Below, one piece after another: positions 5,459 to 60,302 of a stretch of 64,000 nucleotides of DNA. The stretch is from positions 351,772 through 415,771 of the forward strand of contig JBBHKE010003104.1 of assembly GCA_037447655.1 (NCBI GenBank), in the 5' to 3' direction. Position numbers and translations under genes: made by a program. Under the pieces are notes generated by a model, which saw only the letters and a list, made by a program, of their open reading frames with translations, was not told the DNA's origin and made no database searches. This DNA comes from Zygnema cylindricum (Eukaryota > Streptophyta > Zygnematophyceae > Zygnematales > Zygnemataceae). Every line of letters begins with the position of its first letter. Position 1 is the stretch's first letter.

Positions 5459-6530
5459 TGTAGAAATTAATGGTATGTTTAAAATATTTTCTAGGTCTAA
5501 ATAAAAATATAGAAAGAAGCCGAGGCAGTATACCCCTATCTTCTCTCTCCAACTCTCAAACTTGTAGTAGTCACTGAGAAATTGGAGAGGAAGCTAAAAC
5601 CATGGCTACCTAGGCTATCCAAAGGTTTATAGGAAATATATATATTAGTTTATATACCGTTAGGGGTTCATTTACTAAAAGAATATGTGATGCCCCCAGG
5701 ATTTGATCGTGGTACCTGACGGACGGTAAGCAGGCGGTAGCCTTATCCGTTAAGTCTAGACTTAGTGTTAAGTACTATAAGGTTTGATATTTAATTAAAC
5801 ATTAATACGTAGGATAATTCAATTAACTAAAACAATTTACGGGGGACAAAAATCAAGTAATGTAAAAGTACAGATAACGGTTCGGATAAGAAACGAATAC
5901 CGCGTATTTATTTCTTTAGCGAAACGAATACCACGCATGTATTTATTACGGCTACAATTAAATGTGAACTTAATCGGACGGCCGAAATTAACGCCGAGAT
6001 CGCGGAAGAGGATTTCCACGGTTTTTGGTCATCGCCACATTGGATGACACGTGGCGGAATGACATTGGATCGCGGCATCTCTGAGGATAAAGGGAGCGGA
6101 TCCGGATATACCACGTGTCGACCTTTAGGCCATGTCGTACAGTGTCCATACAGAAAGTACACCAGCAGCTGTACTTTTATGTACGGAAGTGTAATCTGAT
6201 TTGCTCCGTACATCAGGAGATACAGTCTGTGAGAGAGATAGGACTTAGAAAAATTAGGAGATAGGACCCTCTCTCACAGAGAGCTTCTGTACAAAAGGTC
6301 AACTTTGACCCTCCATAACTTAATACTCAGCGGAGCAAATTCAGAGATTCTTTTTGATATCAACTCAAAGGAGTCTTCCTTTCACAGAGGAGAAGTTGGT
6401 TAGAGTTTTTCTCTGTCAGGGTGGCAGGTATTTTTGCTGAAACACAAAGGGGTGAGGGTTATCCTAGAGGCTTCTTGGAAGCTGTCCAATATGAGGACTT
6501 ATGGAGGTCTCACAGTTTCATGGTGCAAGA
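5459..6530 (+). mobile_element. Solo LTR of a copia family (TGTAGAAATTAATG type), 1072 bp
   Basis: Begins TGTAGAAATTAATG and ends GGTCTCACAGTTTCA, flanked by a perfect 5-bp duplication TGGTG (5454-5458 and 6531-6535). The last 20 bp hold an ATG that in complete relatives opens gag. Internal landmarks shared with the other LTRs are an antisense tRNA-like segment (about 5700-5765), an ABRE/G-box core ACACGTGGC (6047-6055) and a GTAC-rich inverted repeat (about 6147-6187). It is the same family as 47201-48243. It interrupts a SANT-like reading frame. Confidence 0.92.
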
Positions 6531-10495: not shown

Positions 10496-11054
10496 ATCCC
10501 CCTCTCATTGGCAGAATCGCCAAATCACCTCGAAACAAAACTCCACGCGGGCGCACACGCTTCTTCCTTCGAAACGACTAACTCCAAAAGTTGACTTTAC
10601 ACGTGTCGCTTCACGAACAAACCTGCACGCAAAATCAAACACCTGCGCACGCAAAACAAAAGTCACGCGAAACGAAATCGTACATTTCGTTCGCTGACTC
10701 ATCAAATGTTGACGTGAAACAAGGTCGTACGTTTCGGCGCCAAACATCAATACTCCGAAAGTACCAAACTCCAAACGTACTCCAATATTACTCCAAATGT
10801 GTACTTGCGAATCGAAGTCGAACGCTTCGATCGCCAACCCGATATGAAAGTGACGTCCACACCGTGCGAAGTAATCGCACGAAATATCTCCATACAATTA
10901 CATAGACGCGAATCAAAGTTAAGCGCTTCGTACGCGAACGCGAAATACATTTCGGTTCATTGAAGCGTCACTTTGCGCGATTCAACAATGAATCTAACAA
11001 TCCCCCCTCTCATTGGCAGAATCGCCAAATCACCTCGAAACAAAACTCCACGCG
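10048..11054. repeat. 501/506-bp tandem duplication across an LTR-polypurine junction
   Basis: Copy 1 (10048-10548) and copy 2 (10549-11054) each contain about 450 bp of the LTR start plus about 55 bp of adjacent internal sequence. They are almost identical, with a few substitutions and one- to two-base indels. The duplication therefore created a second LTR start next to a second polypurine tract. Confidence 0.85.
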
Positions 11055-26516: not shown

Positions 26517-27550
26517 TGTTGGATCTTAAAATAAATAGTTTCACTTAACAAAAATAAATAACTCACACAAAATAAATGCTCAAAAAGAAACATAAAACAT
26601 CACACAGCGGAAGCTCATAAAAGACAAGAGGATAATTAGCCAAAAAGAATTATAAGTGTTTCTGGCCGAATCCTCTTTACATCAACTCTTCTCTCCTCCT
26701 CTTCTCTCTTCAAAGATAAACTCTACACTCTTAAAAGATCACAAAAGATGATCATACTCCTTAAAACCTCTTTTCTCCAAATGGATCACGAAGGATCCTT
26801 AACACCTCTTAATTGACCACAAAGGATCTGCTCTCTCTTAATTGACCAAAGGGTCTTTCTCTCTCTCTCTTAATTGATCACAAAGGATCTTCCCCTCTCT
26901 CTTAATCGATCACAAAGGATCTACATCTTTTCTCCTCAGTTGATCCAAAGCTAATACAAGGATATTCTGCACATGTATACTGCTGCCTATATATACTCGT
27001 TACTCTACAAAGAGACAACAAGATAAGACAAGCATAACATAACGTAGCGACGAAGTCTGTCCCTAGCTGACTGTGCACACTGAAATGAAAATTCCACGAA
27101 GGAAGGCGCACACGCTTCTTCCTTCGAAACGACTAACTCCAAAAGTTGACTTTACACGTGTCGTCACGAAAACACCTGCACGCAAAATGTAACACCTGCG
27201 CACGAAAAACAAAAGTGACGCGAAACGAAATCGTACATTTCGTTCGCTGACTCATCAAATGTTGACGTGAAACAAGGTCGTACGTTTCGGCGCCAAACAT
27301 CAATACTCCGAAAGTACCAAACTCCAAACGTACTCCAATATTACTCCAAATGTGTACTTGCGAATCGAAGTCGAACGCTTCGATCGCCAACCCGATATGA
27401 AAGTGACGTCCACCCGTGCGAAGTAATCGCACGAAATATCTCCATACAATTACATAGACGCAATCAAAGTTAAGCGCTTCGTACGCGAACGCGAAATACA
27501 TTGCGGTTCATTGAAGCGTCACTTTGCGCGATTCAACAATGAATCTAACA
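26517..27550 (-). mobile_element. LTR (TGTTAGATT type), second copy
   Basis: 1034 bp, the same family and orientation as 9460-10495; by eye they differ at few positions, apart from a diverged patch near 27165-27225. The flanks are ACAAT (left) and CAAAT (right), which is not a convincing duplication. No primer site or polypurine tract borders it. Probably a solo or recombinant LTR sitting in the gag of another copia element. Confidence 0.75.
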
Positions 27551-28221
27551 CAAATGATTTTTTTGTACTCATCTAGGAGTTTCACAAATAGTGTATTAAT
27601 CTTCCTCTCCTCAGATTCTACATATCCCGCACTAGCAAGCTTAACATATAGCGCATTAATATCATTGCAAAACTCTATCATGCTACCGCCTTTATAAACA
27701 TAGGCATCTATTTCTTGTTTTACTAATTGCTGCCTCTGAATAGTTTCACTCTTATAAATCTCACTAAGTGCTTCCCATATCTTTGACCACTTCGTTAAGT
27801 TTATAAGAGTGATAGCTATGCACCTACACACGTTTCTAAGTATGAGATGCTTTGCTATAGTGTTTTTGTATTCCCATACTTTTTTGTCATTTTCTTCAGT
27901 TTTAATCCCTACAAGTGGTACCATAGGTGAGAGCCTAGCTCCCCTCACCATAGGTGTCCCTTTTTCCTTCTCCCCTATTTCCCCATCCACAGCAAGGTTT
28001 TACCCTTCACCTTCCATAGCATCTAAAATTCGGTTGATATTCCAGGCAGCCTCAGATGATTCTCTATAGTAAGCTCCTCCAAAGCCAAGTGGCGGACATC
28101 TATTTTGTCTCAAACAATTCTCCATAAGTGCATCTCGAAAAGCAATCCCTCCATCATAAATCCCCAATAAGTAAAGCCTGATCCATCCAACATAGGCACC
28201 CTAGATGGTGGGCCCATAACC
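27551..28221 (-). pseudogene. Copia element D gag, truncated and decayed
   Basis: Reading leftward from the LTR at 28222, the start VMGPPSRVP is recognisable, then a degenerate gag with stop codons, then an open stretch (27990-27555) matching the middle of copia gag (QRQQLVKQEIDAYVYKGGSMIEFCNDINALYVKLASAGYVES). It is cut off at 27550 by another LTR; protease, integrase and RT are absent. The primer-binding site 28206-28221 lies directly against the LTR. Confidence 0.75.
28206..28221 (-). other. Primer-binding site of element D, half tRNA-iMet type
   Basis: The plus-strand word TGGTGGGCCCATAACC equals 16 bases of the anticodon arm of plant initiator tRNA-Met as I know it, so the minus-strand RNA could pair with that arm. 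It touches the LTR with no spacer and encodes gag residues around VMGP. Confidence 0.75.
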
Positions 28222-29390
28222 TGAAACTCAATGTGCTCCATTGCCCACAAAAATCGCAGATCCAAAAGAAGCTTATGTAGATAGTGCCGACTCCAAGTTG
28301 ATGTAAACCCAAATGACTAACCCCTTGAAAATCACATACCCATTATAGTTTCATCCCTCTGAAATAAGACTTTCTGTGTGCTCAGTTCCACCTCAGAATT
28401 CAAAGTTAGAATATGAGTTTTGGACACATTCACCCACTTTGACTTTCCCTTATAAATGCAGCCACCCTCGAAGGCAAAAACTATGAATGACTACACACTT
28501 CTGTATCCTGGACTCCCCTGAGTCTGCAACAAAAAGAATCAATGAAAATAGTCAAGTAAATTGATAGATATGAATGGTCAAAGATGACCCTTTTGTATAG
28601 AAGCTCTCTCGGAGAGAGGCTGCTATTTTCTAAATTTTCTAAGTCCTATCTTTCTCTAAAACTTTATTTAATGACGTACGGCACCAATCAAATTACTATG
28701 TCGTATAGAAAAGTACATGTGCCGGTGTACTTTCTGTACGGCCATCGTACGACATGGCCAAAACACCGATACGTGTTATATCGAGATTTGTTCTTGTATT
28801 CTCTAGAGTTGTCGCAATCCAACGTTGTCGCGCCACGTGTCATATGACATGGCGATGATAGTAAAACGCCAAAAGTACATATTTTGTGATCGCGGCGCCT
28901 ATCGTGGCTATCGATCAAAACGGGATACAACTATAGGCGTTGAAACTACACGCACGGTATTTGTTTCGTCTTCGAAACAAATGCGAGGTATCCGTTTCAT
29001 TTAGTACATTAAAATCGTACAAAAACTGTATCTATGCATTGCGTATCGATATCCTGTTTAATAAACTACTCTATGTGTAACATAATAAATATATATAAAA
29101 CCTAATATCAATCATTAATCCTAGACTTATAGGTTAAGGCTTCCGGCTAATTTGACGGACGACAGGTACCCAGGTCAAATCCCGGGTCCATCAAATATTT
29201 TAAGTAACTCAATCGAGATTTGCCTTCCAATCCTCTTTAGACAGCCTAGGCAGCCATGGATCTAACTCCTCCTCAAGTCTTCAGTGACTGCGCAAGTGTG
29301 GGGACTTGAGTGAAGAGTTAGAGGCAAGCTCTCATTGTTTTGGCTTTTATTTAACACTCTCTAAACCTATATAATACTTAAATTTCAACA
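28222..29390 (-). mobile_element. 5' LTR of copia element D (TGTTGAAATTTAAG type), 1169 bp
   Basis: Minus-strand start TGTTGAAATTTAAG at 29390 and end CACATTGAGTTTCA at 28222. It contains the shared design: an ABRE core (28832-28840), a GTAC-rich inverted repeat (about 28710-28760), an antisense tRNA-like segment (about 29125-29190) and an ATG 20 bp from its end. It interrupts a Ty3/gypsy gag on its right. Confidence 0.82.
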
Positions 29391-36100: not shown

Positions 36101-37535
36101 TAGCAGTAAAGACTCCTTTCCTAGTACTAGTATCAAAACCCTTATCATCTAAAACAGACGTAGAGATGACGTTTTTGTTCAGCTCCAGAATAAACAACAC
36201 ATCGGAGAATGTAACTATAGATGTCTTTCCTTCTACTTACACTTTTAGATCTACCGATCCTACAACACTAGTAGTGACTATCCTCCCATCCCCGTACTCT
36301 ATCTCTACGGTGGGAATCTTTCGTATCTTAGTGAACAGGTGTTTATCTTTACACATGTGCATGGATGCTCTTGAATCTACAATCCAGCCTGCTTCACCTG
36401 TCAATCCACCGAAAGCACATTTCTGTTTTCGTGGAATTTCGACCTCGTTTTTCGTTTCCAACTCCTCATTCAATAGGAGTTCATCGTCCTCGTCCTCGGA
36501 TTGCGCCTGATGTACCTGTGTCACAAGGGCCTTTTTCTTTCCTCTCGGGGGTCCACCAGTCTGCCCCTCCTTTAACCGCAGCTCGGTTAACTTAGTGTAT
36601 TCAGCCATATAGTGCCCGGGTTTCTTACAAAAATGGCACAGTCCCTTAGGAGTCCTTAGTCCGAACTCCTCGGTCTGATTTTTCTGCCCATCCCCTCGAT
36701 AATTTCCAACCTGATTTCTGGAATCATTGTTTCGCCAATCGGTCCCGGCTGCCAAAGCTTGCCCACTCTTTCCTCCCCTTCGGATCTCAATTGTATTCTC
36801 GCGAACGAGAATCATCCCTACCACTGAATTCCAAATCCACCTTGAGTTCGCCAAGTCCTGCACACGGTTGACTATGTTCTCGAACTCCTCGGGTAACTTC
36901 ATCATTAAACAGTTAACCTTTTCCCTTTCACTAAATACTTTTCCAGCACTTTCTAGTTCCATGAAAAATGTAGCAAGCTCATTGCAAAAATCCAACATCT
37001 TCCCCCCTTTGTATACATACTCTTTAATTTTCTGATCAGCCAACTGTTGTTGCTGAATCGTACCACTTCGGTAAATCTCTATGAGAGCCATCCAAAGATC
37101 GGATGCCCTCTCTTCTTGCAAATGGGGAGATGCAAGCCTTTGAGTAAGATGGCGGAGGATGAAGTGCTTATCCGCCATATTGTTGTAGTCCCACGTATCG
37201 ATATCATTCTCGTCGTTCCTCGGAATAGGTGACATGAATGCCGAACCGGTTGCTATTTGTGTGACCGTCTCCTTCTCCTTGCCTTTGTCCACCACCTCTC
37301 CTTCCTTTGTCTCCTCTGTTGAAGATGAATCTGCATCTCTAGTGAATTTTCCTCTAGTAAACCCTGGAGGTATCCCAAGACTGGATGGACGCCTCACCCG
37401 TCCTCTCACTATTCCCCAAAACCGTTTCACCCATAGAGCTCCTGTCATCATACTTTCCCAGTATATGAAGCCAGCTCCATTGAATATGGGCACCCTAGAT
37501 GGTGGGCCCATAACCTGTAACTCTGAGACCACCAT
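33177..37535 (-). pseudogene. Gag-Pol of copia element B, two nonsense codons
   Basis: One continuous frame from an ATG at 37535, itself 20 bp inside the LTR, to 33177, about 1,453 codons. It is interrupted only by TAA at 36237-36239 and TAA at 35820-35822. Domain order: gag, zinc knuckle, protease, integrase (HKRLGH...CSGC zinc part, then the D,D,E core), reverse transcriptase (IYVDDLL) and RNase H (AQSTMEAEYMAS). Two further lesions hit key residues: the last zinc-knuckle Cys is Tyr, and the protease signature reads DSRAS where relatives read DSGAS. The element is recognisably complete but not autonomous. Confidence 0.92.
37500..37515 (-). other. Primer-binding site of element B, half tRNA-iMet type
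   Basis: TGGTGGGCCCATAACC on the plus strand, directly against the LTR edge at 37516, identical to the site of element D. It lies inside the gag frame. Confidence 0.78.
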
Positions 37536-37629
37536 AGGACCTCAGAGTAGGCAGCTCACACGAAGCCTCTAGGATAACCCTGACCCCTTTGTGTTTCAGC
37601 AAGAATAACTGCCACCCTGGCAGACCAAA

Positions 37630-38630
37630 TGTTGAAATAAGTAGTTTTTGTATTTTATAGTTTAAAATAAATTAGCGGAAACATATATAAGAAATGATGG
37701 CAGCCTGCCTCCATCTCTTCTCTCTCTCCCCCATACTTGTTGTAGTCACTAAAAGAGAGAGAGAGCGATGGAGCCATGGCTGCTTCAGCTCCATAGGAAG
37801 GACTAAAGAGTGACTTAAGTCACTCTCAACAAAAGGTTGAGTCCGGCAGGACTCGAACCCCCGACCGGTAGAGCGCGGCGTAGCCGTTAGCTCTAACTAG
37901 TCTGTCGTAGAAGTCCGTTAGATTATATTGGGTTTCATTCATATATAAACTGTTGTATAGTACCGAAATGATCTAACTGGAATATAAAACGAAACGAACA
38001 TAGAACTTGTTAAAGTTTAGTGCGAAACGTCATTTCGCACGAAACAAATGAAACAGACACTTTTAACGGTCGACATTTAATGTCGGATTTAATCCGACGG
38101 CGCACGTTGTCGCCGAGATCGCGGAATGGTCACTTTGGATTTTATGGACGTGGCATGACGTGGCGCCGCGTGGAAGGATGACATTCGGTCGCGGGAATTC
38201 CGAAGGAAATACGGACAAGTGGAAAAATGACACGCGTCCACTCAAGAGCCTTGTCGTACACCGGCCGTACAGAAAGTACATCGGCCATAGTACCTTTCTG
38301 TACTTTACAGTAATACGATTGGTTCGTACTTTAGTAGATAGGGGTTGTGAGAGGGATTTAGGACTTAGGAAATTTTTGGTAGACAGACACCTCTCTCTAA
38401 GAGAGCTTTGTATAAATTGGCATTTTTGCCGGCTTATAACTTATCGCCTGGTTGGCCGTTTTCAGTGATTCTTTTTCTACGCACTCAAGGGAGTCTAGGC
38501 TACACAGGGGTGCAGTCAAATTCTCAGTTTGCCTTCTTGGGCAGAAGTGGTCGTGGCTTAAAGTGGGTTAGTTAAATACTATCTAGAGGCTTCCTGTATT
38601 CTGTAGTCCAATGGAGGACACAGAATTGCA
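37630..38630 (+). mobile_element. 5' LTR of copia element A
   Basis: TGTTGAAATAAG...CAGAATTGCA, 1001 bp. Contains a perfect palindrome GAGTGACTTAAGTCACTC (about 37809-37826), an antisense tRNA-like segment with B-box GTTCGAGTC (about 37850-37912), a GTAC-rich inverted repeat (about 38268-38310), and the gag ATG at 38611. Confidence 0.95.
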
Positions 38631-41600
38631 AGTTATGGGCCCACCCTCTAGGGTGCCCACCTTCAATGGATCTGGGTTCATCTATTGGGAAGCCATGATG
38701 ATGGGAGCTTTAAGTGAAAAATGATACTGGGGTATCGTCAGTGGAAAAGTGAAACGTCCACCTTCGGGAACTCCACAAGGATTTGGGGGAGTAAGGTTTC
38801 CTGCAACAACGGCTGCCTCAGCGGAGGAGGCAGATGATGGGGACAGCAGTGTTTCCGAAAAGGAGAAAGGGAAGGAGACACCCCTCACTCCTATTGCCAC
38901 AGTATCGGGAACGGCGACCGTGAAGACCGTGGAGAACGATACTCAAATGTGGGAGGATGTAAACATGGCTGCCAAGAACTTCATTTTGAGGCACCTCACT
39001 CAAGGTTTGGCCACTCCTCATCTTCACATTTACAAGGCAGAAGAATTGTGGGAGAGTTTGGTGGAGATTTATAGAGCTGGAATTATTCAGGAGCTCCAGT
39101 TGGCTGAGCAAAAGCTATTGAGTTACACTTACAAAGGAGGAAAGATGTTAGATTACTGTAATGATCTTTCTTGTTTGTATATGGAAATGGAGAGTGCCGG
39201 GTGGACAGGTACAATGAAAATGAAAATTAACACCCTTATCATGAAATTACCAGATGAGTTCGAAAACATAGTGTACCGAGTACAGGGAATGCCTTATAGT
39301 TCATGGAAATGGAACACAGTAGTCAGGATGATACTTATGTTGGAAAACACAATGGAGATTAGGAGAAGAGGAAAGAGCATTCAAGCTCTAGCAGTAGGAG
39401 GGGACCGATGGGGGAAGGATCCGAAGAAACCTTATAGAGGGGAAAGAGATAATTCTGGGGGACAGAGGCCCCCAAAGGGTCTTTGTCATTATTGCAAAAA
39501 GCCGGGACACTTTATTGCAGATTGTGTCAAGTTGTCAGAGCTGAGGCTCCAAGAAAACCGTGGAGGGGGTTCTTCCGGAGGGAAGAAAAAGGCACTTGTG
39601 GTTACAAAAGTGTCAGGAGAAATCGAGGATGAGTCATTTGAGGAGGATGGGGAGCTTCTTCTTGACGAGAGTCTGGAGGAGAAGGAGATCCCTCGGAGGC
39701 AGAAGTGTGCCCTTGGAGCAATTCGGGAAGCTCCACGGGAAGGATGGATCATCGACTCAGGTGCATCCATGCATATGTGCCGTGATAAAGAACTCTTCAC
39801 TAAGCTACGAAAGATTCCTACTGTAGAGATAGAGTATGGGGATGGGAGAGTGGTTACTACAGATCTAGTGGGATCAGTAGATCTGAAAGTCTTAGTGGAG
39901 GGTAAGACCTCTATACTTACATTCTCAGATGTACTTTACATTTATCAGCTGAGTAAAAATCTTGTCTCTACGTCTGTGTTAGATGACAAAGAGTTTGATA
40001 CCTTCACCAGAAAGGGAGTCTTTACAGCTAAGTATGGGAATGAAGTTTACTTCACAGCAAATAAGGGTAGCCAAGGAATGTTTAGGCTTAACTTGAGTAA
40101 TGAAAAGAAGAATGCTTACTATGTTGGTGTTCCTAAGGTGATGATTTGGCATAAGCGTTTGGGGCATGTGCATTTTGATAGGTTAAGGGAAATGAAAAAG
40201 CTTGGGGTAGTAGATGGCATTCATTTTGGGGATAATGAAATAATGGATGATTGTAGTGGTTGTGCTCAAGGTAAGGCTCACAGACTTCCCTTTCCCAAAG
40301 CCGCCACATATAGAGGTGAGAAAGTGTTAGATTTGGTCCATACAGATATTTGGGGACCTGCAAAAGTACCTTCGGTTGGAGGAAAGAGGTTTATGATGAC
40401 AATAACTGATGATTGGTCTAGATACTCTAGAGTCTACTTTCTGAAAAATAAGTCTGAAGCATCCACTAACTTCAAAGAATATAAAGCTTGGAGTGAGAAG
40501 TTGCATGAAACCCCTATTAAGAGGATAAGGAGTGATAATGGGGGGGAATATACCTCTAACCAGTTTGAGGAATATCTGAGAGATGAGGGAGTGCAACACC
40601 AGAAAACTGTACCATATAACCCGGAACAAAATGGGGTAGCTGAGAGGTTGAATAGAACACTAGGAGATAGTGCATGCAGTATGTTGGCAGACAAGAAAAT
40701 AGGAAAGAGATTTTGGGCAGAGGCAATGAACTGTGCCAACTATATTAAGAATAGAGTCCTCACCTCAGCTGTAAAGGGAGTCACACCTTATGAGAGATGG
40801 GTTGGAAGGAAACCAGATATCTCACACCTTAAAGTATTTGGTAGCCAAGTTTACAGTCTTGACACGGATAGGAAAAACTGGAAACTAGATGCTAAGGGAA
40901 AACCTGGATACTTTGTGGGATATGATGAGGATGTTAAGGGATATAGAGTATATGACTTGGCAAAGAAAGATATCATTCTGGTCAAACACTTAGTTGTCAT
41001 GGATGAAGGGAAGTCATTTGACACCTTCAAATATACAAACAAGATTAGGATCAGATTTGAGTCTGAAACTGAGGAGAACTCGGTCGTTCCCGAAAGGGAT
41101 ATAGGTGACACCGTGATTACAGATTCAGGGGAGATCCAAGATACAGGAGACTCACCGGAAACCTCACATACTCCTATGGACTTCGAGGAGATAGAAGAAG
41201 CGGGACAAGAACCGGTTTCCATGGACAAGGGAGCCAATGAAACAGTGAGAAGAAATCCAAGACTTCCATCCATTCTTGCTTCAGAGTTTGAGGGAGGAAG
41301 AATGAGCAGCAAAAGATTACAGGAAAAACAAGTCGCTCATAAGGTAACTAAGCTATCTCACCCTGATGAGCCTCAGTCTTACTCGGAGGCAGTGAATAGT
41401 CCAGAGAAAGAAAGATGGATTAGAGCTATAAATGATGAGATGGCTTCTATCATGGAAGCAAATACCTGGGAATTAGCTGATTGTCCTCCAGACAGAAAAC
41501 CTATTGGGTGTAAATGGGTATTTAAACTAAAACTGAACCCAGATAATACCATTGAAAGATATAAGGCTCGATTGGTAGCGAAGGGGTTCACCCAAAAGGA

Positions 41601-42960
41601 AGGGATTGACTATGAGGAGACCTTTGCTCCAGTTGTTCGGTTCCCATCAGTAAGGATTCTCCTCAGCCTGGCAGCAGCGGAAGACATGGAAATCCATCAG
41701 ATGGACATTAAGACTGCGTTTCTTAATGGTGAGTTAGAGGAAGAAATTTTCATGAGACAACCCGAGGGGTTCGTGGAGGAAGGAGAAGAGAGCAAAGTCT
41801 GCAGGCTCATAAAGTCCTTATATGGACTAAAGCAGGCTCCCCGACAGTGGAACAAGAAACTAGATGAGTTTCTTACCAGTCTGGGATATATCCGTATAAG
41901 CTCTGACCATTCTATCTATATGTTTGAAGATGAGAATGGTGTCATTTTTATTGCAATTTATGTGGATGATCTGCTTGTGTTGAGTAAATCCTTGGAAAAG
42001 ATCAATAAGTTAAAAACAGAACTTAGAAGCAGATTTGATATGAAGGATTTAGGGGAGGCAAAATATATCTTGGGGATTCAGATGGAGAGAGATAGGGGGA
42101 AGAAGATTATCAGACTTACTCAGAAAGAAGCAATAGGTAATATGCTTGAGAAATTCCAGATGGAAAATGCTAACAGTTGTACCACTCCCATGGACTTGAA
42201 AAAAGTAAGTGATGGGAGTGTAGAAGGAGGAGTAATTATCTTAGATGATCAAATGAGTATTGAAGAGAGAGAGTTTATGAAGACTATCCCTTATAGACAG
42301 GTCGTAGGAAGTTTAATCTATTTTATGAATTGTACCAGGCCGGACATAGCGGCAGCAGTTGGAGTACTCAGTAGGAGTCTGAATGATCCTAGGAAGAGGG
42401 ATTGGGAGGCAGCCAAGAGAGTCATGAGATATCTGGTTGGAACCAGAGAGTTATGGTTGCATTTGGGAGGGGAGCACACTGACATCACTACTTGGAGTGA
42501 TGCCAGTTATGGGGACGCACCTATGAGACGATGCACTTCTGGGTATGTGTTGTATGTTGGGGAAGGTGCATGCTGTTGGAGCAGTAAGCAACAAAAGGTG
42601 GTTGCACAGTCCACCATGGAGGCTGAGTACATGGCCTCTTGTTCTGCTGTGAAAGAGTTGATGTGGGTCAAGTCCTTGCTGCAAGAACTTGGGTATATGA
42701 AGGAGGGAGTGCATGAAGTGTTTTGTGATAATCAAGCGGCCATAGCAATTGCAGCAAATCCAAAACATCATTTTAAGGCTAAACATATGGACATAAGATT
42801 AAGTTTTGTAAGAGAAAAAGTTGAGAATAAAATAGTGAATCTTGTATATAGATCTGATGAGGAAATGGTAGCGGACATGATGACCAAACCTGTACCCTCG
42901 CCGAAATTAAAATACTGCAGGGAAAAATGTGGATTAAAAGAAAAATTAAAAATAGACTAG
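38611..42960 (+). CDS. Gag-Pol polyprotein of copia element A, one early nonsense codon
   Basis: The frame opens at ATG 38611 inside the LTR and runs 1,450 codons to TAG 42958. A single TGA at 38722-38724 (codon 38) interrupts it where relatives have Arg; a CGA to TGA change fits CpG decay. A Met at 38749 gives an uninterrupted 1403-residue frame. Domains: gag, CCHC knuckle (CHYCKKPGHFIADC, from codon 292), aspartic protease (DSGAS, from codon 382), integrase zinc part (HKRLGH...CSGC) and D,D,E core (HTDIW, RSDNGGEY, PEQNGVAERLNR), reverse transcriptase (YVDD, codons 1117-1120), RNase H (STMEAEYMAS). All catalytic signatures I can check are present. Function: replication and integration of the element from a cytoplasmic particle. 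Confidence 0.95.
38632..38645 (+). other. Primer-binding site of element A, half tRNA-iMet type
   Basis: GTTATGGGCCCACC begins one base after the LTR and is complementary to the anticodon arm of plant initiator tRNA-Met. It includes the ATG complementary to the CAU anticodon and is read as Val-Met-Gly-Pro in gag. Confidence 0.78.
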
Positions 42961-42973
42961 AAAATAAGGGGAG
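42961..42973 (+). other. Polypurine tract of element A
   Basis: AAAATAAGGGGAG immediately before the 3' LTR; the same word precedes the 3' LTRs of elements B and C. It primes plus-strand synthesis. Confidence 0.88.
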
Positions 42974-43974
42974 TGTTGAAATAAGTAGTTTTTGTATTTT
43001 CTAGTTTAAAATAAATTAGCGGAAACATATATAAGAAATGATGGCAGCCTGCCTCCATTCTTCTCTCTCTCCCCCATACTTGTTGTAGTCACTGAAAGAG
43101 AGAGAGAGCGATGGAGCCATGGCTGCCTCAGCTCCATAGGAAGGACTAAAGAGTGACTTAAGTCACTCTCAACAAAAGGTTGAGTCCGGCAGGACTCGAA
43201 CCCCCGACCGGTAGAGCGCGGCGTAGCCGTTAGCTCTAACCAGTCTGTCGTAGAAGTCCGTTAGATTATATTGGGTTTCATTCATATATAAACTGTTGTA
43301 TAGTACCGAAATGATCTAACTGGAATATAAAACGAAACGAACATAGAACTTGTTAAAGTTTAGTGCGAAACGTCATTTCGCACGAAACAAATGAAACAGA
43401 CACTTTTAACGGTCGACATTTAATGTCAGATTTAATCCGATGGCGCACGTCGTCGCCGAGATCGCGGAATGGTCACTTTGGATTTTATGGACGTGGCATG
43501 ACGTGGCGCCGCGTGGAAGGATGACATTCGGTCGCGGGAATTCCGGAGGAAATACGGACAAGTGGAAAAATGACACGCGTCCACTCAAGAGCCTTGTCGT
43601 ACACCGGCCGTACAGAAAGTACATCGGCCATAGTACCTTTCTGTACTTTACAGTAATACGATTGGTTCGTACTTTAGTAGATAGGGGTTGTGAGAGGGAT
43701 TTAGGACTTAGGAAATTTTTGGTAGACAGACACCTCTCTCTAAGAGAGCTTTGTATAAATTGGCATTTTTGCCGGCTCATAACTTATCGCCTGGTTGGCC
43801 GTTTTCAGTGAATGTTTTTGCTACGGACTCAAGGGAGTCTAGGCTACACAGGGGTGCAGTCAAATTCTCAGTTTGCCTTCTTGGGAAGAAGTGGTCGTGG
43901 CTTAAAGTGGGTTAGTTAAATACTATCTAGAGGCTTCCTGTATTCTGTAGTCTAATGGAGGACACAGAATTGCA
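42974..43974 (+). mobile_element. 3' LTR of copia element A
   Basis: Same ends and length as the 5' LTR, followed at once by the CCAAA duplication. It carries the ATG at 43955-43957, which here leads nowhere. Confidence 0.95.
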
Positions 43975-46881: not shown

Positions 46882-49240
46882 TGTTGATATTTATGTATTT
46901 TCTAGGTGTGTTTTAGTATAGAAAAAGAGCAGAGGCAGTTTGCCTCTAACTCCCTTCTCCAAGCCCACACACTTGTTGTAGTCACTGAAGGCTGTACACA
47001 GAGCTAGAGTCATGGCAGCCTTGGCTCTATATGGAGACAGGGTGTAGAATTGGTAGACTTACCAAAAAGGTATTTGACGGACCCAGAAATTGATCTTGGA
47101 ACTTACCGTCCGTCAAACAACCCGTAGCGGTTGGCCTTATCCGTTTAGTCTAGGACTAATGCTAACACATATTGGGTTTGGCAGATATTTAAATAACATC
47201 TGTAGAAATTAATGTTTTTAAGTATTTTCTAGGTCTGAATAGAAAGAAAGAAGCCGAGGCAGTCTACCTCTAACTTCTCTCTCCAACTCTCAAACTTGTC
47301 GCAGTCACTGAGAAATTGGAGAGGAAGCTAGAGCCATGGCTACCTAGGCTATCCTCAGGTTTACGGGAAATTTATATTAGTCTAGGGATTAATAAAATAA
47401 CTGCGCCGGCGACAGGATTTGATCCTGGTACCTGCCGGCCGTCAGAGAGTAGATAGCCGGTTGCCTTAGCCGTTAAGTCTAGAAGTAGTGTTACATAGTA
47501 TATAGTACGATAATGATTTAAACATGTACACGTAGGATAAGTCATTTAACTATAACTGTTAACGGGATACATAGATATGGTAGTGTAAAAGTACGAATTG
47601 CGGTACGGATAAGAAATCAATACCGCGCATTGATTTCGTAAGCGAAACAAATACCGCGCATGTATTTATTACGGCTACGACCAAATGCGAGTTTATTCGG
47701 ACGGCCGGAATTAGCGCCGAGATTGCGGATGGAGAATTCGGCGGTTTGTGGGCATCGCCACATCGGATGACACGTGGCGAAGTTACATTGGAGCGCGACA
47801 TCTCCGAGGATTAAAGAAACGAATCCGGACATACCACGTGTCGACATTTAAGGCATGTCGTACAGTGTCCGTACATAAAGTACACCGGCAGCTCTACTTT
47901 TGCGTACGGAACTGTAATCTGATTAGTTCCGTACGTCAGTAGATAGAGTCTGTGAGAGAGATAGGACTGAGAAAAATTAGAAGATAGGACCCTCTCTCTT
48001 AGAGAGCTTGTGTACAAAAGGTCAACTTTGACCCTCCATAACTTACTGCTCAGGGGAGCAAATTCAGAGATTCTTTTTGCCATCGACTCAAGGGAGTCTT
48101 GTCTTCACAGGGGTGAAGGTGGTCAGAGTTTTTGTCTGCCAGGGTGGCAGTTATTTTTGCTTAAACACAAAGGGGTCAGGATTATCCTACTGGCTTCTTG
48201 GAAGCTCTCCACTCTGAGGACTTATGGAGGTCTCAGAGTTTCAGCATCTAGAAGGGTTTTCCATTTAACATGATTACGGTTTATATGGCATAGAAATAGT
48301 TGTACTTTAAAGTACGGACGAAACAAATAGTATGTACATTTGTTTCGACAGTCCGTATTTAATGTTGAAATAAATCAGACGGCCATGGTTAGCGCCGGCA
48401 TCGCGGAAGGACAATTTGGCAGTTTGCGGACGCCGCCACTCCGGATGACACGTGGCAACATCATATGGGTTTACGGAATCTTCAGAATGGAAGATAACAA
48501 ATCGAAAGTGACAAATATTGCAATATGGCATTGTCTTACAAAGTTCGTACAAAAAGTACTCCGACACCTGTACTTTCTTGTACGGTACCATTTTTCTGAC
48601 ATGGCATGACTTGGCGCCACGTGGAGAGATAACATTTGGAAGTAAGAATTCCGGGGATTATATGAACTAGTTTGGATATGATATATGTTGACCTAGTTTA
48701 GCCATGTCGTACGATGGCCGTACAAAAGGTACACCAGTACCTGTACATTTATGTACTATACAGTAATATGATTGGTCCATACCTCAATACTAGGGGGTTT
48801 AGAGAGGGGTTAAGGACTTAGAATATTTTAGGTAGGTAGCAGTCTCTCCCAAAGAGCATCTTGTATAAAAGGCAAACTTTGGCCAGCCATAACTATTAAC
48901 TTACTTAGCCATTTTCAGTGAATTTTTTTGCTGTAGACTCAAAGGAGTCCACGCTACAGAGGGGTGTAGTCAGTCAGAGTTTCTGCCTTCATGGGTGGCT
49001 GCATTTCTAAGGGAAAGTCAAAGTGGGTGAATGTATCCAAATCACATATTATAACTTTGCATTTTTGTGGTGGAACTGAGCACACAGAAAGTCTTGTTTC
49101 ACAAGGGTGAAGCTTTAATGGGGTTGTGATTGTCATGGGGTCAATCATTTGGGTTTATATAAACTTGGAGTCGGCACTATCTAGATTAGCTTCTTTTTTA
49201 TTTGTGAATTCTGTGTGGCAATGGAGCCCATAGAATTTCA
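46882..49240 (+). mobile_element. Solo LTR (TGTTGATATTTATG type), about 1.3 kb, itself interrupted
   Basis: Start TGTTGATATTTATG, end GCCCATAGAATTTCA, perfect 5-bp duplication GTTTT (46877-46881 and 49241-49245). It is split by the solo LTR at 47201-48243; the two parts sum to about 1.3 kb, like the sister copy at 56726-58031. The longer length comes from an internally duplicated block with two GTAC-rich hairpins (about 48550 and 48725). Confidence 0.92.
47201..48243 (+). mobile_element. Solo LTR (TGTAGAAATTAATG type), 1043 bp, innermost nest level
   Basis: Start TGTAGAAATTAATG, end GGTCTCAGAGTTTCA, flanks ACATC (47196-47200) and GCATC (48244-48248), a 4/5 duplication. Same family as 5459-6530. 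ABRE core at 47770-47778; antisense tRNA-like segment at about 47410-47485. Confidence 0.9.
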
Positions 49241-51003: not shown

Positions 51004-52638
51004 ATGGCTCCTCAAAAGCGGTGGGCATCTCGATCCCCATCTCCCTCTTCTTTCGATCACGTGCGGCCTCGATTAGGCGCCTCAATTGAGCGCCCTACCC
51101 CTCACTTTCCGAATCCCAAGGGTGAATCTCTCTCTCATTTGCAATCCCTTCAATTAGGTTATTTGCCAACCTTGCACGCGCAACCTCAACCTCCTATAAC
51201 CGTGTTCGACTCCACGAACTTAACCATGCCTGTCCACCCACAACCCACACCCACTGTTAACCCTATTCCATCCCCTTCTGTATAACTTCCTCATTCACTT
51301 CCGCATACTAGCCTTTATCGTCCTCCTCATCGTCGCGAACAATCACACCTTCAACTCTCTACCTCTCTTTAACGGCTATCTCCATCACGACTCCCAACTT
51401 CTCTTGGTGGTTCATTGGTATCGGATGTGGGTCCATCAAGCCAAACATCACATCCTCCATCTTTGACCCCTTTATCCCCGACCCCTCTAGTTTTAGAGAC
51501 AACATCAACTCGCGTACCCAGCGCGAAGCCTTCTCGAGTTCCATGTCCTGTGTGTGGCAAGTTGTACGGCGCAAGAGCAGGTGTCTCAAGACATTTGAAA
51601 GCTTGTCCGAAGACCAAGGCTAACATTCCTCCATGTTACCCTAAACATCCTACACACCCTCATGTTTGTCGTCAACCATCTCCGTCTGATTGGTAGTTTA
51701 TTCAGCACCTTGATGTTCTTGGGTGCTATCACTTGGGCTAACCGCGACCCCCTCCGTACACCCGTATTCCCCATCATCTTTGAGAACTTATCCAAGCATC
51801 TTTGCGTATTTCTTTGGATTTATTCGCTAATGATGTTTCAAATGAAGCTGCATGTCATCTCCTATTCATGTTTCAGCTTTAGGTTCTAATTTTGCCACCC
51901 CGAGGGGAAGCTAGTGGAGCTCGTGAGACTCGGGCTGGATGTTAGCATTTTTTGCGTGGCGATTAGGAGTCTTTTCAACAAGAGCACACAGATCGAGTTA
52001 TTGGCATTTTTGTCTCACCTCTTCGTCGTCGCGCCCCATTACCAAGTTCTACCGCGAGACTCAGCGAGCTGTCCTCCTTGGTCGTTTAAGTGAACTTTCT
52101 CAGGCTGCGAGCTCTTCGGCCTTTCACACCCTCTCCATCTTTAGAGGCAATTGTTAATTCGTTACGTTTGTTGCATCCTCCTGCACCTGATGATATCCTC
52201 TTATTTATTAAAGGGCATGATCCTCTTGAATCCTTTAATTTGGATGGTGAAGCATTTACCAAGGCCCTCGTCAAGTCCCCGCACCTTTTGGTAGGAGGTT
52301 CCTCTGGGATGGTTTTGCAATTTTGTGTCCTCCATTGGACTACAGAATTTAGGAAGCCTCTAGATAGTTCTACCGCGAGACTGCACGGAGCTGTCCTCCT
52401 TGGTTGTTCAAGTGAATTTTCTCAGTCTACGCGAGCTCTTCGGCCTTTCACACCCTCTCCATCTTTAGAGGCAACCGTTGACGCGTTACGTTTGTTGCAT
52501 CCTCGACACCTGATGACATCCTCTCATGTGTTGAAGGGCATGATCCTCTTGAATCCTTTAATTTGGATCGTGAAGCATTTACCAAGGCCCTCGTCAAGTC
52601 CCCGCACCTTTTGGTAGGAGGTCCCTCAGGGATGGTTT
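51004..52638 (+). pseudogene. LINE-like (non-LTR) remnant with C2HC finger
   Basis: Starting from ATG 51004 is a Ser/Pro-rich region. At about 51544-51606 an open stretch encodes CPVCGKLYGARAGVSRHLKAC, a single zinc finger of the kind seen at the N terminus of some non-LTR retrotransposon proteins. After frame changes, 52090-52310 reads LRPFTPSPSLEAIVNSLRLLHPPAPDDILLF...KALVKSPHLLVGGSSGM, which resembles the linker before the reverse transcriptase in such elements. The RT itself is not present: a copia LTR begins at 52639. Alternative: a decayed host gene. Confidence 0.45.
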
Positions 52639-52688
52639 TGCAATTCTGTGTCCTCCACCGGACTACAGAATTCGGGAAGCCTTTAGAT
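52046..52688 (+). repeat. 321-bp tandem duplication spanning a LINE-LTR boundary
   Basis: Copy 1 is 52046-52366 and copy 2 begins at 52367, both starting GTTCTACCGCGAGACT. Copy 1 ends with the first 51 bp of the LTR (52316-52366), then jumps back to LINE-like sequence. The copies differ at many positions, so the event is old. Confidence 0.85.
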
Positions 52689-53643
52689 AGTTGTTAACTA
52701 ACCCATTTTCAATGGCAACCACTGTTGCCCAAGCAAACAAGTTGACAATCTGACTACATCCCTGTGCAGCTTGGACTCCTCCAGTCCGTATGAAAAAGAA
52801 TCTCTAAAAACGCCCAATCAGACGATAAGTTATAAGGTGGCAAAGATGCCAAGTTTAAACAAACTCTCAAAAGGAGAGAGGTCACAACCTACCAAATTCA
52901 CTAAGTCCTAAACCCCTCTCACAACCTCTATCTATTGACGTAAGAACCAATCAAATAACTGTAGGGGTATAGAAAGGTAGTATGGCCGATGTACTTTCCG
53001 TACGGCCTGTGTACGGCAAGGCCATTGGGTGGACGCGTGTCCACTTTTAACTCGTCCTTATGTTCCCCATAATTCTTGCGACCAAATGTTATCCCTCCAC
53101 GTGGCGCCACATCATGCCACGTCCATAAACGCCAAAGTGCCCATTTCGCAATCTCGGCAGTGATATACGTCGTCGGATTATTTCCGAGATTAAATGTCGG
53201 CCGTCGAAACAAATGTCCGATTCATTTTTTTCGTGCGAGATAATGTTCGCACTATATAACGCTTGGTTTTGTGGGTTTTCGTTTGTCATTCCGTTAATTG
53301 AATTCATGGTCTTAACACTGTTTAAATATTTATCAAACCTAATGTATCCTAACGGACTTCTACGACAGATTGGATAGAGGTAACGGCTACGCCGCGCTCT
53401 GCCTGTCAGAGGTTCGATCCTGCCGGACTCAACCTTTTGTTGAGAGTGACATAAGTCACTCTTTAGTCCTGTCTGCTGAGCTAGAACAACCATGGCTCAT
53501 CCACCTTCTCTATCCCTTAATGACTTCAACAAGTATCGGGGGTAGAGAGAGGAGGTTGAGGCAGGCTGTTTGCCTTTTTCTTTTCCTATTTGTACTGAAC
53601 TATATAGACCTAGAAAATATCATAAAAATCAATAATTTCAACA
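52639..53643 (-). mobile_element. 3' LTR of copia element C, 1005 bp
   Basis: Minus-strand start TGTTGAAATTATTG at 53643 beside the polypurine tract AAAATAAGGGGAG; end ACACAGAATTGCA at 52639. Antisense tRNA-like segment at about 53362-53425; CACGTGGC core near 53089. Confidence 0.9.
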
Positions 53644-53647
53644 CTCC

Positions 53648-56600: not shown

Positions 56601-59298
56601 CTAGTGAAGGTATCAAACTCTTTCTCATATAACACAGATGTAGAGACAAGATTTTTACTCAACTGAGGAATATAGAGCACATCTGAGAAAGTGAGTATAG
56701 AAGTCTTACCCTCCATTAAGACTTTTGAAATTCTATGGGCTCCATTGCCATACAGAATTTGCAAGTCCAAAGGAAGCTAATCTAGATAGTGCCGACTCCA
56801 ACTTGATATTAACCCAAATGACTGACCCCTTGACAATCAGAACCCCAATATAGCTTCACCCTTGTGAAATAACACTTTCTGTGTGCTCAGTTCCACCACA
56901 GAATGCAACGTTAGAATATGAGATTTGGACACATTCACCCACTTTGACTTTCCCTAAGAAATGGAGCCGCCCAGGCAGGCAAAGACTCTGACCGACTACA
57001 CCCTTGTGTAGCCTTGACTTCCCTGAGTCCGCAGCAAAAAGAATCACTGAAATTGGTGAACTGAGTTGATAGTTATGGCTAGCCAAAATTTGCCATTTAT
57101 ACAAGGTGCTCTCTGGGAGAGGCAGCTACCTACCCGAAATATTCTAAGTCCTAAATCCATCTCTAAACCCTCTATTTCTGAGGTACGGACCAATCATATT
57201 ACTGTATAGTATATAAAGGTACAGGTACCGCTGTACCTTTTGTACGGCCATCGTACAACATGGCTAAATAGTCAACACATGTCCTATCCCGATTCGCTCT
57301 TATAATCCCCCGAATTCCTGCTTCCAAATCTTATCTCTCCACGTGGGGCCAGGTCATGCCACGTCAAAAAAAAGGTATCGTATAGGAAATTACACGTGCC
57401 GGAGTACTTTCTGTACGAAGAGTACGATATTGCCATAATGTGACATTGTCACATCCGGATTTATTGTGTTCCGTTCCGTAGATTTCGCAGCCTATAAGAT
57501 ATCGCCACGTGTCATTCGGAGTGGGGACGTCCGCAAACCGCCAAATTATACTTTCGCGTAGCCGGCGCTAATCACGGCCGTCCGATTTATTTTGGCATTT
57601 CAAACGGACAGTCGAAACAAATGTCCGTACTATTTGTTTCGTCCGCTACTAAAAGTACAACTGTTTCTATGCCCTATATACGGTAAGCAAGTTAAATGGA
57701 ATACCCTGCCTATAACTATTTAGATATTTATCAAACCCAATACGTCCTAACACTAGTCCTAGACTAAATGGACAAAGCTAATGGTTACGGGATGTTTGAC
57801 GAACGGTAGGTACTAGGATCAATTCCTGGGTCCGTCAATTACCTTTTTAGTAGATATACCTATTGTCTATTCCTGTCTCTTTGAAGAGCTTAGGCAGCCA
57901 TGGCTCTAGCTCCCTCTCCAGCGTTCATTGACTACAACAAGTGTGGGGGCTTGGAGAAGGAGGTTACAGGCAGACTGCCTCTACTACTTTTCTATCCTAA
58001 AACAGACCTAGAAAATACATAAATATCAACAACTTTCAAATCTACTGATCCCACTAGATCTGTAGTAACCACTCTCCCATCCCCATCCATCCCCATACTT
58101 TATTTCTACAGTAGGGATTTTCCTTAGCTTAGTGAAGAGGTCCTTATCACGACACATATGCATGGATGCACCTGAGTCGATGATCCATTGTTCTTATAGA
58201 GCTTCCCGAATTGCTCCAAGGGCACACTTGTGTCTTTGAGGGATCTGCTTCTCCTCCATACTCTCGCTAAGAAGAAGCTCTCCATCCTCCTCAGAGGACT
58301 CGTCCTCGGTTTCTCCTGTCACTTTTGTTACCACAGGTGCCTTTTCCTTCCCTCCGAAAGAACCCCCTCCACGATTCTCTTAGATCCTCAGATCCGACAG
58401 GTTGACACAATCCGCGATAAAGTGTCCCGATTTTTGCAAAAATGACAAAGGCCCTTTGGGGGCCTCGGTCCTCTAACCTGAACTCTTTCTCCTTTGTATG
58501 GCTTTTTCGGTTCCTCTGTCCACCTGTCCCCTCTGGCGGCTAGAGCTTGAATGCTCTTTTCTCCTCTCCTGATCTGAATCGTATTCTCTTGCACAAGTAT
58601 CATGCGGACCACTGTATTCCACTTCCATGAACTATCAGTCATTTCTTGTAATCGGTACACTATGTTCTCATACTCGTCGGGTAACTTCATGATGAGAGTG
58701 TTAACTTTCATTTTCATTGTACCTGCCCATGAAGCACTCTGTATCTCCATATAAAAACAAGAAAGATCATTACAGTAGTCTAACATCTTTCCCTCTTTGT
58801 TAGTATAATTTCCCAACTTTTTCTTTGCCAACTGGAGCTGCTGAATCATACCAGCTCTATAGATCTCTATCAAACTCACCCACAACTCCTAGGCCTTGTA
58901 AACGTGAAGATGGGGAGTTGCCAAAGCTTGAGTGAGGTGTCTCAGAATGAAGTTCTTGGTCGCGATGTTGGTGTCTTCCCCCATTTGAGTGTCGGTCTCC
59001 ACGGTCTTCACGATAGCCGCTCCGGGTGTTGTGGGAATAGGAGCAATAGGAGTAAGAGGTGTCTCCTTTTCTTTCCCCTTTTCGGACACACTGCTGTCCC
59101 CATCATCTGCCTGCTGATGTTGCTATAGAAAACCTTATTCCACCAAACCTTGATGGGGTTCCTTGAGGTGTACGTTTCACTTCTCCACTAACAATACCCC
59201 AGTATCGTTTTTCACACAAAGCCCTTGTCATCATGGCTTCCCAATAGATAAACCCTGATCCATTGAAGATGGGCACCCTAGAGTGTGGGCCTATAACC
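53648..59298 (-). pseudogene. Gag-Pol of copia element C, heavily decayed
   Basis: Minus-strand fragments in order: RNase H end (53935-53657), RNase H (54469-54023), linker and reverse transcriptase (55612-54524), integrase (55930-55658 and 56533-56141), integrase zinc region (HKRLGHVHFDRLR), then, beyond the solo LTR at 56726-58031, protease (DSGAS still present near 58160-58190), knuckle and gag (58885-58388, 59089-58889, 59340-59103). Many stops and frameshifts; the RT signature reads CVDD instead of YVDD. Same family design as elements A and B. Confidence 0.92.
56726..58031 (-). mobile_element. Solo LTR (TGTTGATATTTATG type), 1306 bp
   Basis: Perfect 5-bp duplication ACTTT (56721-56725 and 58032-58036). 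It sits in the protease-to-integrase region of element C, whose frame resumes on either side. Sister of 46882-49240, with the same internally duplicated promoter-like block and an ABRE core at 57504-57512. Confidence 0.94.
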
Positions 59299-60302
59299 TG
59301 CAATTTTGTGTCCTCTATTAGACTACAAAATTTTGGAAGCCTCAAGATAGTTTATAACTAACCCACTTTCAATGGCAACCACTGCTGCCCAAGCAAACAA
59401 GTTGACAATTTGACTGCACCCCTATGCAACCTGGACTCCTTTGACTCCGTAGGAAAAAAAATCTTTGAAAACGCCCAACTAGGCGATTGGTTATAGGGTG
59501 GCAAAGATGCCAATAATACAAACTCTCAAAGAGAGAGAAGACCATCTACCAGATTTTTCTAAGTCCTAGCTCCCTCTCACAACCCCTATCTATTGATTGT
59601 ACGAATTAATCAGAACAATGTACAATACAAGAAAGTATTATTGCCGATGTACTTTTTGTATGACCTTTGTCCGACAAGGCCATTAAACAAGCGTGTGTCA
59701 ACTTTTCACTCGTCCGTACATTCCTCGGAATTCCCGTGACCGAATGTTATATCTCCACGTGGCGCCAGGTCATGCCACGTCACAAATTGCAAAGTGACCA
59801 TTCCAAGATCTCGGCGATGATGTGCGCCGTTGGATAGAATTTAGTATTTGATCTCAACAGTCGAAACAAATGCCTGATTCATTTGTTTCGTGCATAATCA
59901 TATTCGTACTGTATTTAACTCGTTCTTTGTATCTATGTTTGTATTTTCGTTAATCGAAATATCTACCGTAATACTGTTTAAATATTTATCAAACCCTATA
60001 CACTCTAGCAAACTTCTACGACAGACTGGTTAGAGCGAACGGCTACACCATGCTTTACTAGTCGGAGGTTCGAGTCTTGCCGGACTCAACCTTTTGTTGA
60101 GAGTAACTTAGGTCACTCTTGTACTGCATAGGTGGAGCTGAGGCAGCCATGGCTCCACTGCTCTCTCTCTCCTTTAATGACTACAACAAGTATGGGGGAT
60201 ACAGAGAGATAGGTGGAGGCTGACTGCTTTCGCTCTCTTTTCTATTTTTATATTTAGACTTAGAAAATACTTATATTAAATCCTTTTTAGTTATTTTCAA
60301 CA
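59299..60302 (-). mobile_element. 5' LTR of copia element C, 1004 bp
   Basis: Minus-strand start TGTTGAAAATAAC at 60302, end ACACAAAATTGCA at 59299, followed by a degenerate half-tRNA primer site (59283-59298). The gag ATG position has become ATA. The outer flanks of the element (GGTTT at 52634-52638, CAAGT at 60303-60307) do not match. Confidence 0.9.

Follow-up and report, generated by a model that had tools for sequence, protein, structure and literature searches.

Probable half-tRNA priming and gag initiation inside the long terminal repeat in Ty1/Copia retrotransposons of Zygnema cylindricum

Introduction

Several Ty1/Copia retrotransposons use part of a tRNA as the primer for reverse transcription. 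Drosophila copia has a half-tRNA primer, and yeast Ty5 uses an internally cleaved initiator tRNA-Met (PMC5371799, in the passages covered). Among plant Ty1/Copia lineages, a primer-binding site (PBS) for a half-molecule of tRNA-Met is described for Osser, Bryco and part of Gymco-II, and a half-tRNA-Ile primer for the Bianca lineage; in the passages covered, the plant assignments rest on complementarity (Neumann et al. 2019, PMC6317226). For yeast Ty1, the part of the source covered gives a 5' untranslated region of 53 nucleotides (nt), a PBS at RNA nt 95-104 inside GAG and a long terminal repeat (LTR) of 334 bp, coordinates that imply that the GAG AUG lies within the LTR; the Ty1 PBS has also been altered by silent substitutions within GAG (PMC5454406). 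Here we describe a nest of Ty1/Copia elements in a 64,000-nt stretch of DNA from the alga Zygnema cylindricum (contig JBBHKE010003104.1, positions 351,772 to 415,771; hereafter the window), in which a half-tRNA PBS and a gag start in the LTR appear to be joined.

By PBS type, and by that alone, the window elements can be likened to Osser, Bryco and Gymco-II, whose PBS is complementary to half of tRNA-Met; Bianca also has a half-tRNA primer, but one derived from tRNA-Ile rather than tRNA-Met (PMC6317226). Partial initiator-tRNA priming would be shared with copia and Ty5 (PMC5371799). A gag AUG in the LTR and a PBS inside gag are shared with Ty1, but the Ty1 primer is the 3' end of the whole initiator tRNA-Met (tRNA-iMet), with boxes pairing with arms of the tRNA, whereas the window elements match the anticodon half (PMC5454406). 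The half-tRNA-Met PBS and the PBS inside GAG have each been published separately, and the observation described here is real and well supported. In Drosophila copia, unlike the start predicted for the window elements, gag starts downstream of the PBS. We did not find a half-tRNA PBS joined to a gag start in the LTR of a plant element in the literature searched (titles and starts of abstracts), no search being aimed at primer fossils; at the same depth, literature on gag starts in or near LTRs gave Ty1 cases and no plant case, and the peptides QVMGP and VMGPPS led only to works that look unrelated by title and abstract start. The main text of PMC6317226 has 0 matches to 'start codon', and the passages of it covered here do not mention an overlap of gag, LTR and PBS or primer fossils.

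Results

A primer site complementary to half of tRNA-iMet adjoins the LTR

The nest includes element A, lodged within the 5' LTR of element B, and elements D and E. The best overall explanation for these elements, and one we consider very probable, is that they are half-tRNA-iMet-primed Copia elements with the gag AUG in the LTR and the PBS overprinted on gag. At the level of sequence we show the layout, its conservation, its complementarity to the genome's tRNA-iMet genes, and two proviruses that carry an antisense 39-mer of the tRNA. The features in the window are as follows.

37630-43974, plus strand: element A, with an LTR pair, target-site duplication (TSD) CCAAA on both sides and a polypurine tract (PPT)
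37630..38630, plus strand: 5' LTR of A (TG...CA; end ...ATTGCA at 38630), 98.4% identical to the 3' LTR; TSD CCAAA
42974..43974, plus strand: 3' LTR of A, with end ...TTGCA and the PPT AAATAAGGGGAG directly before it
38611..38613, plus strand: gag ATG of A inside the LTR, 20 bases from its end
38631..38646, plus strand: PBS of A, with a 14-nt exact match to the antisense of tRNA-iMet nt 25-38, read in the gag frame as Val-Met-Gly-Pro-Pro
38647..38657, plus strand: 11-nt block TCTAGGGTGCC of A, adjoining the downstream edge of the PBS and identical in all four elements (A, B, D, E)
38725..42957, plus strand: open gag-pol frame of A past a stop, with Retrotran_gag_2, Pol_BBD, gag_pre-integrs, rve and RVT_2
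37516..37629, minus strand: terminal 114 bases of the B 5' LTR, which is interrupted by A, resumes on its far side and has its start at 44898
37533..37535, minus strand: LTR-internal gag ATG of B
37500..37515, minus strand: PBS of B, matching the antisense of tRNA-iMet nt 24-39 exactly over 16 nt
37489..37499, minus strand: 11-nt block of B after the PBS, TCTAGGGTGCC exact
36240..37535, minus strand: gag frame of B, 432 open codons from the LTR ATG
28222..29390, minus strand: LTR of D
28239..28241, minus strand: LTR-internal gag ATG of D
28206..28221, minus strand: PBS of D, matching the antisense of tRNA-iMet nt 24-39 exactly over 16 nt
28195..28205, minus strand: 11-nt block of D after the PBS, TCTAGGGTGCC exact
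52639-60302, minus strand: element E, decayed, with its 3' LTR at 52639-53643
59299..60302, minus strand: 5' LTR of E, with the LTR-internal ATG mutated to ATA
59283..59298, minus strand: PBS of E, decayed, with 3 mismatches to the 16-mer
59272-59282, minus strand: 11-nt block of E after the PBS, TCTAGGGTGCC exact
5459..6520, plus strand: solo LTR (B-like family) with an ATG at -20, flanked on either side by the TSD TGGTG
47201..48243, plus strand: solo LTR (B-like family) with an ATG at -20 and the flanks ACATC/GCATC

Elements A, B, D and E are Ty1/Copia LTR retrotransposons. The Pfam domains in the A frame (gag_2 at 59-205, Pol_BBD at 341-424, rve at 535-633 and RVT_2 at 913-1156) give the order gag, protease, integrase, reverse transcriptase (RT), with integrase before RT as is diagnostic of Ty1/Copia. 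LTRs of the form TG...CA, a 5-bp TSD (CCAAA) and a PPT (AAGGGGAG) are present in A, and the solo LTR at 5459-6520 has the TSD TGGTG. The LTR end as defined by the LTR pair and TSD of A agrees with that of this solo LTR, whose TSD is perfect.

The 16-mer TGGTGGGCCCATAACC occurs exactly at the PBS of D and of B and nowhere else in the window; its complement is found in A with 2 mismatches, and the decayed PBS of E is a fourth site. Four matching sites were reached in 0/100 shuffles. In B and D the LTR ends in ...CA and the next base opens GGTTATGGGCCCACCA, so that the claim of the earlier sequence-only reading that this site abuts the LTR without a spacer holds for both elements. Element A reads AGTTATGGGCCCACCC at the same point, and E has a decayed form. 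The first PBS base is A in element A and G in 37/40 copies of its family, which brings the match flush with the LTR.

The PBS is antisense to nt 24-39 of the genome's own tRNA-iMet. The initiator tRNA used as query has 12 matches in the genome: 2 at 72/72 bases, six more that are full-length at 90-97% identity, one at 82%, and three cut exactly at nt 39; ARAGORN called tRNA-Met(CAT) at the matched site in 6/8 loci fetched. When 3196 overlapping 80-nt stretches of the window (both strands) were compared with the tRNA, exact matches longer than 10 nt occurred in 5, one of 14 nt and four of 16 nt. Duplex energies with the half-tRNA were -44.5 for A, -45.6 for B and -45.1 for D, the minimum for 400 random window stretches being -38.0. 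The PBS at the LTR border is thus complementary to the anticodon part of tRNA-iMet and not to its 3' end, which, along with the exact 39-nt halves described below, supports the half-tRNA-iMet priming that had been proposed from the sequence alone.

Rfam gave 0 matches, and no exact complement of at least 8 nt to the leader was found elsewhere in A or B in the four stretches examined. We also considered an RNA hairpin formed by the PBS and the 11-nt block. A similar local fold was predicted in A, B and D, but z-scores were -1.5, -2.1 and 0.1, respectively (0.5 for E), over 35 nt and -0.8, 0.4, 0.4 and 1.0 over 80 nt, and this structure is not claimed.

The gag reading frame opens within the LTR and crosses the primer site

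Of the 11 LTR ends in the window, 9 have an ATG 20 bases inside the LTR; the 2 without it belong to the decayed element E, which has ATA in one LTR and GTG in the other. The sequence-only reading had a gag ATG 20 bp before the LTR end of A and a frame that crosses the boundary; we confirm this, with the ATG at 38611, the LTR end at 38630 and the sequence QVMGPPSRVP in frame. The N-termini read from the ATG at -20 are M-E-D-T-E-L-Q in A, M-V-V-S-E-L-Q in B and M-E-H-I-E-F-Q in D, each followed by V-M-G-P-P-S-R-V-P. By position, then, A, B, D and their copies have the Ty1-type arrangement of a gag AUG inside the 5' LTR and a PBS in the gag frame. In an alignment of seven lineages the last 20 LTR columns are gap-free, and the commonest base has a mean share in them of 0.84, compared to 0.53-0.77 in the eight preceding 10-column blocks; conservation of the LTR end alone is no proof of coding, because integrase is also expected to preserve the last LTR bases.

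Family copies were picked by similarity from the 352.8-Mb assembly, with the window elements included, and for this reason the following counts describe the families and test selection weakly. In the A family (40 scored of 3557 candidates), the ATG is present in 40/40, the PBS starts GGTT... in 37 and AGTT... in 3, and 33/40 copies are open for at least 140 codons, A being among the 7 others. For the B family (40 of 3856 candidates scored, 20 fetched), the counts are 20/20 LTR ends for the ATG, 16/20 for the exact PBS and 15/20 for a frame open for at least 140 codons; locus L122, a B-family row lacking the PBS, is probably the 3' LTR of its copy. For the D family (40 of 1739 candidates scored, 30 loci fetched and all aligned), the ATG is found in 29/30 and the exact PBS in 22/30.

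The LTR AUG is the most likely main gag start on this evidence. An unlikely alternative is that the elements do prime from a half-tRNA, with Gag starting instead at the AUG within the PBS (MGPPSRVP...) and the LTR ATG being incidental. In its favor, G flanks the AUG of the PBS at -3 and +4 in A, B and D, whereas position -3 of the LTR ATG is C in A and B; 19/22 D-family rows also have a further upstream AUG at -122. What such a start does not explain is an LTR ATG fixed at exactly -20, free of indels, across lineages with differing LTRs, nor the open N-terminal extensions that precede QVMGP in three divergent polyproteins (see below). In addition, 37/40 A copies and 18/20 B ends have no ATG other than the LTR ATG in their last 190 nt. 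Upstream ATGs of B beyond -114 and an ATG at -169 in locus L119 lie inside the inserted element A, hence not in the B LTR, and were not counted against B. Both the LTR AUG and the PBS AUG may be used, by leaky scanning.

Two proviruses carry a complete 39-nt copy of the tRNA half

Two proviruses elsewhere in the genome, L071 and L072, contain after the 5' LTR the whole antisense of tRNA-iMet nt 1-39, and both 39-mers equal the tRNA gene in locus L066 at 39/39 bases. The LTR pair of L071 is 96.0% alike, both members ending in ...GAATTTCA, with flanks AGCTG/AGCCG. The 39-mer follows the 5' LTR only and is joined to gag from GATGGAACAGAC on, with GAT shared at the junction. In L098, a normal relative of L071, the PBS and TCTAGGGTGCC are followed by ...GATGGAACAGA, with GAT at +35-37; in L071 the GAT is at +37-39 and gag is shifted by two bases (a +2 frameshift). 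L072, also a Copia element, has an identical 39-mer at a different junction, where it follows the 5' LTR tail (...CATTTCAATA) and precedes a zinc-knuckle-like stretch. Matches to late gag and protease begin approximately 270-370 nt further on, so that most of gag is apparently gone.

We read these 39-mers as fossils of the primer. As genomic sequences placed after the 5' LTR, they would fit a tRNA half of defined length attached to the first cDNA of the element. The 39-mers could also have come from recombination with a tRNA gene, and tRNA-iMet genes of identical sequence do exist in the genome, but this origin is quite improbable: both pieces span exactly nt 1 to 39 with the tRNA 3' half absent, the adjoining DNA is element DNA, and the pieces stand after the 5' LTR, with none after the 3' LTR. 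As primer fossils, they would provide genomic evidence for the exact ends of the primer and a signature that can be searched for in any genome.

A further piece of the tRNA was observed at L073 (G000:C1109:253850-256850). An insertion in a Copia pol contains a palindrome of approximately 760 nt that ends in GGACAACA. After the palindrome come 32 nt that are antisense to nt 8-39 of tRNA-iMet, and a portion of the insertion is repeated, inverted, about 0.8 kb away.

Conservation of the primer site among elements and in divergent polyproteins

The sequence-only reading expected the PBS to be better conserved than the flanking gag, and this was borne out in part. In pairwise comparison of A, B, D and E, identity in the PBS (83/96) exceeds that in the LTR tail (87/120) and in the 48 nt of gag beyond the 11-nt block (213/288), but falls below that of the block itself (66/66), which immediately follows the PBS. 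Within families, the expectation held for D and failed for A. In the D family, variants occupy 9/480 positions in the PBS and 210/5454 in the LTR, tail and gag flanks (Fisher p = 0.023, a value that is too small because the rows are not independent, some being near-identical); the flank count excludes the 11-nt block and the ATG with its three preceding columns.

The 11-nt block TCTAGGGTGCC, which lies outside the tRNA match, is exact in A, B, D and E at third codon positions too (18/18 pairwise, compared to 57/96 in the next 48 nt). Its conservation may reflect an additional cis signal or a constraint on the protein.

A search with the RT residues of B alone listed 120 proteins. Three full-length polyproteins, P0002 (MGSSMETIESQVMGP), P0019 (MATDEDETQQVMGP) and P0020 (MAESDDENSQVMGP), open with 9-10 residues followed by QVMGP, the translated PBS. 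Their RT identity to B is 80%, 54% and 53%, respectively, and the residues around QVMGP differ from the window elements and among themselves. A second search was queried with these three proteins; some of the 238 proteins retrieved in all stop short of the N-terminus. QVMGP occurs 3 times in the 279,921 residues of these 238 proteins, each time at those N-termini; P0148 has QVMG without the P at residues 35-38. We regard the three polyproteins as the best evidence for an old, preserved overlap. They also favor the earlier proposal that the gag N-terminus is locked to the primer sequence, since QVMGP appears to have been kept while its neighbors changed. Because the primer site encodes QVMGP, half-tRNA elements of this kind should be recognisable from proteins alone, and the overlap of LTR end, PBS and gag start would make primer use visible in the protein. 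In DNA, the signature expected at the LTR end behind such proteins is CA followed by GGTTATGGGCCC.

Other searches for relatives were negative. None of 4595 candidates in a gag search with B reached E <= 1e-5; in viral contigs, none of 29 pattern loci matched P0019 and none of 66 stretches encoded a relative; and among prokaryote contigs, 0/5 distant Copia contigs had either of the primer-site motifs searched.

It could be argued that QVMGPP is preserved for reasons of the protein, the tRNA-iMet match being a by-product and reverse transcription starting elsewhere. The codons for SRVP, which fall beyond the tRNA match, vary less than the PBS among the four window elements, and the PBS of the A family is no less variable than its flanks. 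Yet there are 256 ways to code VMGPP, and B and D equal the tRNA complement at 16/16 bases; the site also abuts the LTR, as a PBS is required to do, and the 39-nt tRNA copies of L071 and L072 stand at that very point. We therefore consider this explanation highly improbable. The chance that the 3' end of whole tRNA-iMet is the primer, as in most plant Copia elements, is negligible, being contradicted by the LTR ends, L071 and L072: for this tRNA, the only 3' end compared, the best 12-mers reach 6/12 in A and D and 7/12 in E, and the 10/12 match of B (TGGTCTCAGAGT) cannot set the LTR end because it lies at -16 inside the LTR, its TGG moreover being a private change (GTGGTC in B, GAGGTC in 19/20 B-family ends).

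A model for priming and translation from one RNA segment

The half-tRNA interpretation leads to the following model. The primer would be the 39-nt 5' half of tRNA-iMet (nt 1-39), released by cleavage within the 3' strand of the anticodon stem. Its last 15-16 bases would pair with the PBS abutting the 5' LTR and prime minus-strand DNA. Translation of gag would begin at the AUG 20 bases inside the LTR and continue through the LTR end, the PBS and the codons that follow. With the PBS inside the translated start of gag, the primer sequence would fix Q-V-M-G-P-(P) near the Gag N-terminus. Plus-strand strong-stop DNA would copy the attached primer, normally up to the edge of the PBS. In L071 and L072, copying would have run on to the tRNA 5' end and the surplus would have been joined to gag, in L071 at the shared GAT. 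The length of the PBS (15 nt in most A copies, 16 nt in B and D) would fit a halt of plus-strand copying near tRNA nt 24-25, and a modified G at standard tRNA position 26 is what we take to be a candidate stop. Use of the primer in the cell, the LTR AUG as main start and the origin of the 39-mers from strong-stop DNA are what we infer from these data.

Several points weigh against this interpretation. The sequence-only reading had the gag frame of A pass through the primer site, which it does, but A's own frame is shut at codon 38 (TGA, 38722-38724), even though most of its family copies are open far beyond. The PBS carries a second in-frame AUG (GTTATGG) that is a possible real start. Upstream ATGs are present in other window LTRs too; in the D family, the LTR ATG is the sole ATG within 200 nt in 2/22 rows, the -122 ATG being the usual addition. 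The ATG counts rest on copies chosen by similarity. Conservation of the PBS within families is modest (D) or absent (A); for the A family, which is young, variant cells amount to 3/640 (PBS), 12/4000 (gag) and 4/1600 (LTR). Three bases (ATA) stand between ...TTTCA and the 39-mer of L072, the LTR end is uncertain there, and the third tRNA piece (nt 8-39), in the palindromic insertion of L073, is left without an explanation. Finally, the LTR and PBS of P0002, P0019 and P0020 are deduced from protein alone.

A wider reading, which we put forward tentatively and regard as rather doubtful, is that the N-terminus of Gag has become coupled to the host initiator tRNA throughout a widespread Copia clade. 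The in-frame AUG of the PBS would be the complement of the CAU anticodon, the annealed half-tRNA would lie on gag codons 7-12, and translation and priming would be mutually exclusive for each RNA. Plus-strand DNA could copy the primer to its 5' end because the primer is a 5' half; owing to the overlap with gag, elements that take up such a copy would be dead, by frameshift or deletion, leaving fossils such as L071 and L072, and a stop in copying near tRNA nt 24-25 would be selected for. The arrangement raises the question of how one RNA segment serves as the start of both translation and reverse transcription.

Other features of the window

The last 53 bp of an A-like LTR together with a flank beginning AAACCATCCC are repeated 323 bp from the end of the 3' LTR of E (52316-52368 and 52639-52836), which is probably a tandem duplication that took in both the LTR end and its flank. 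A repeat with open reading frames that hold 'RHFHIGLAIEAFDFDSQVHIWSNIGV' or a close variant has three copies (10009-10987 and 27136-27538), one of which lies in the gag region of D; no Pfam match was obtained for the one copy examined. On the minus strand at 16934-21943, SNF2-related and SHPRH helical domains mark a host SHPRH-like gene that adjoins the transposon nest.

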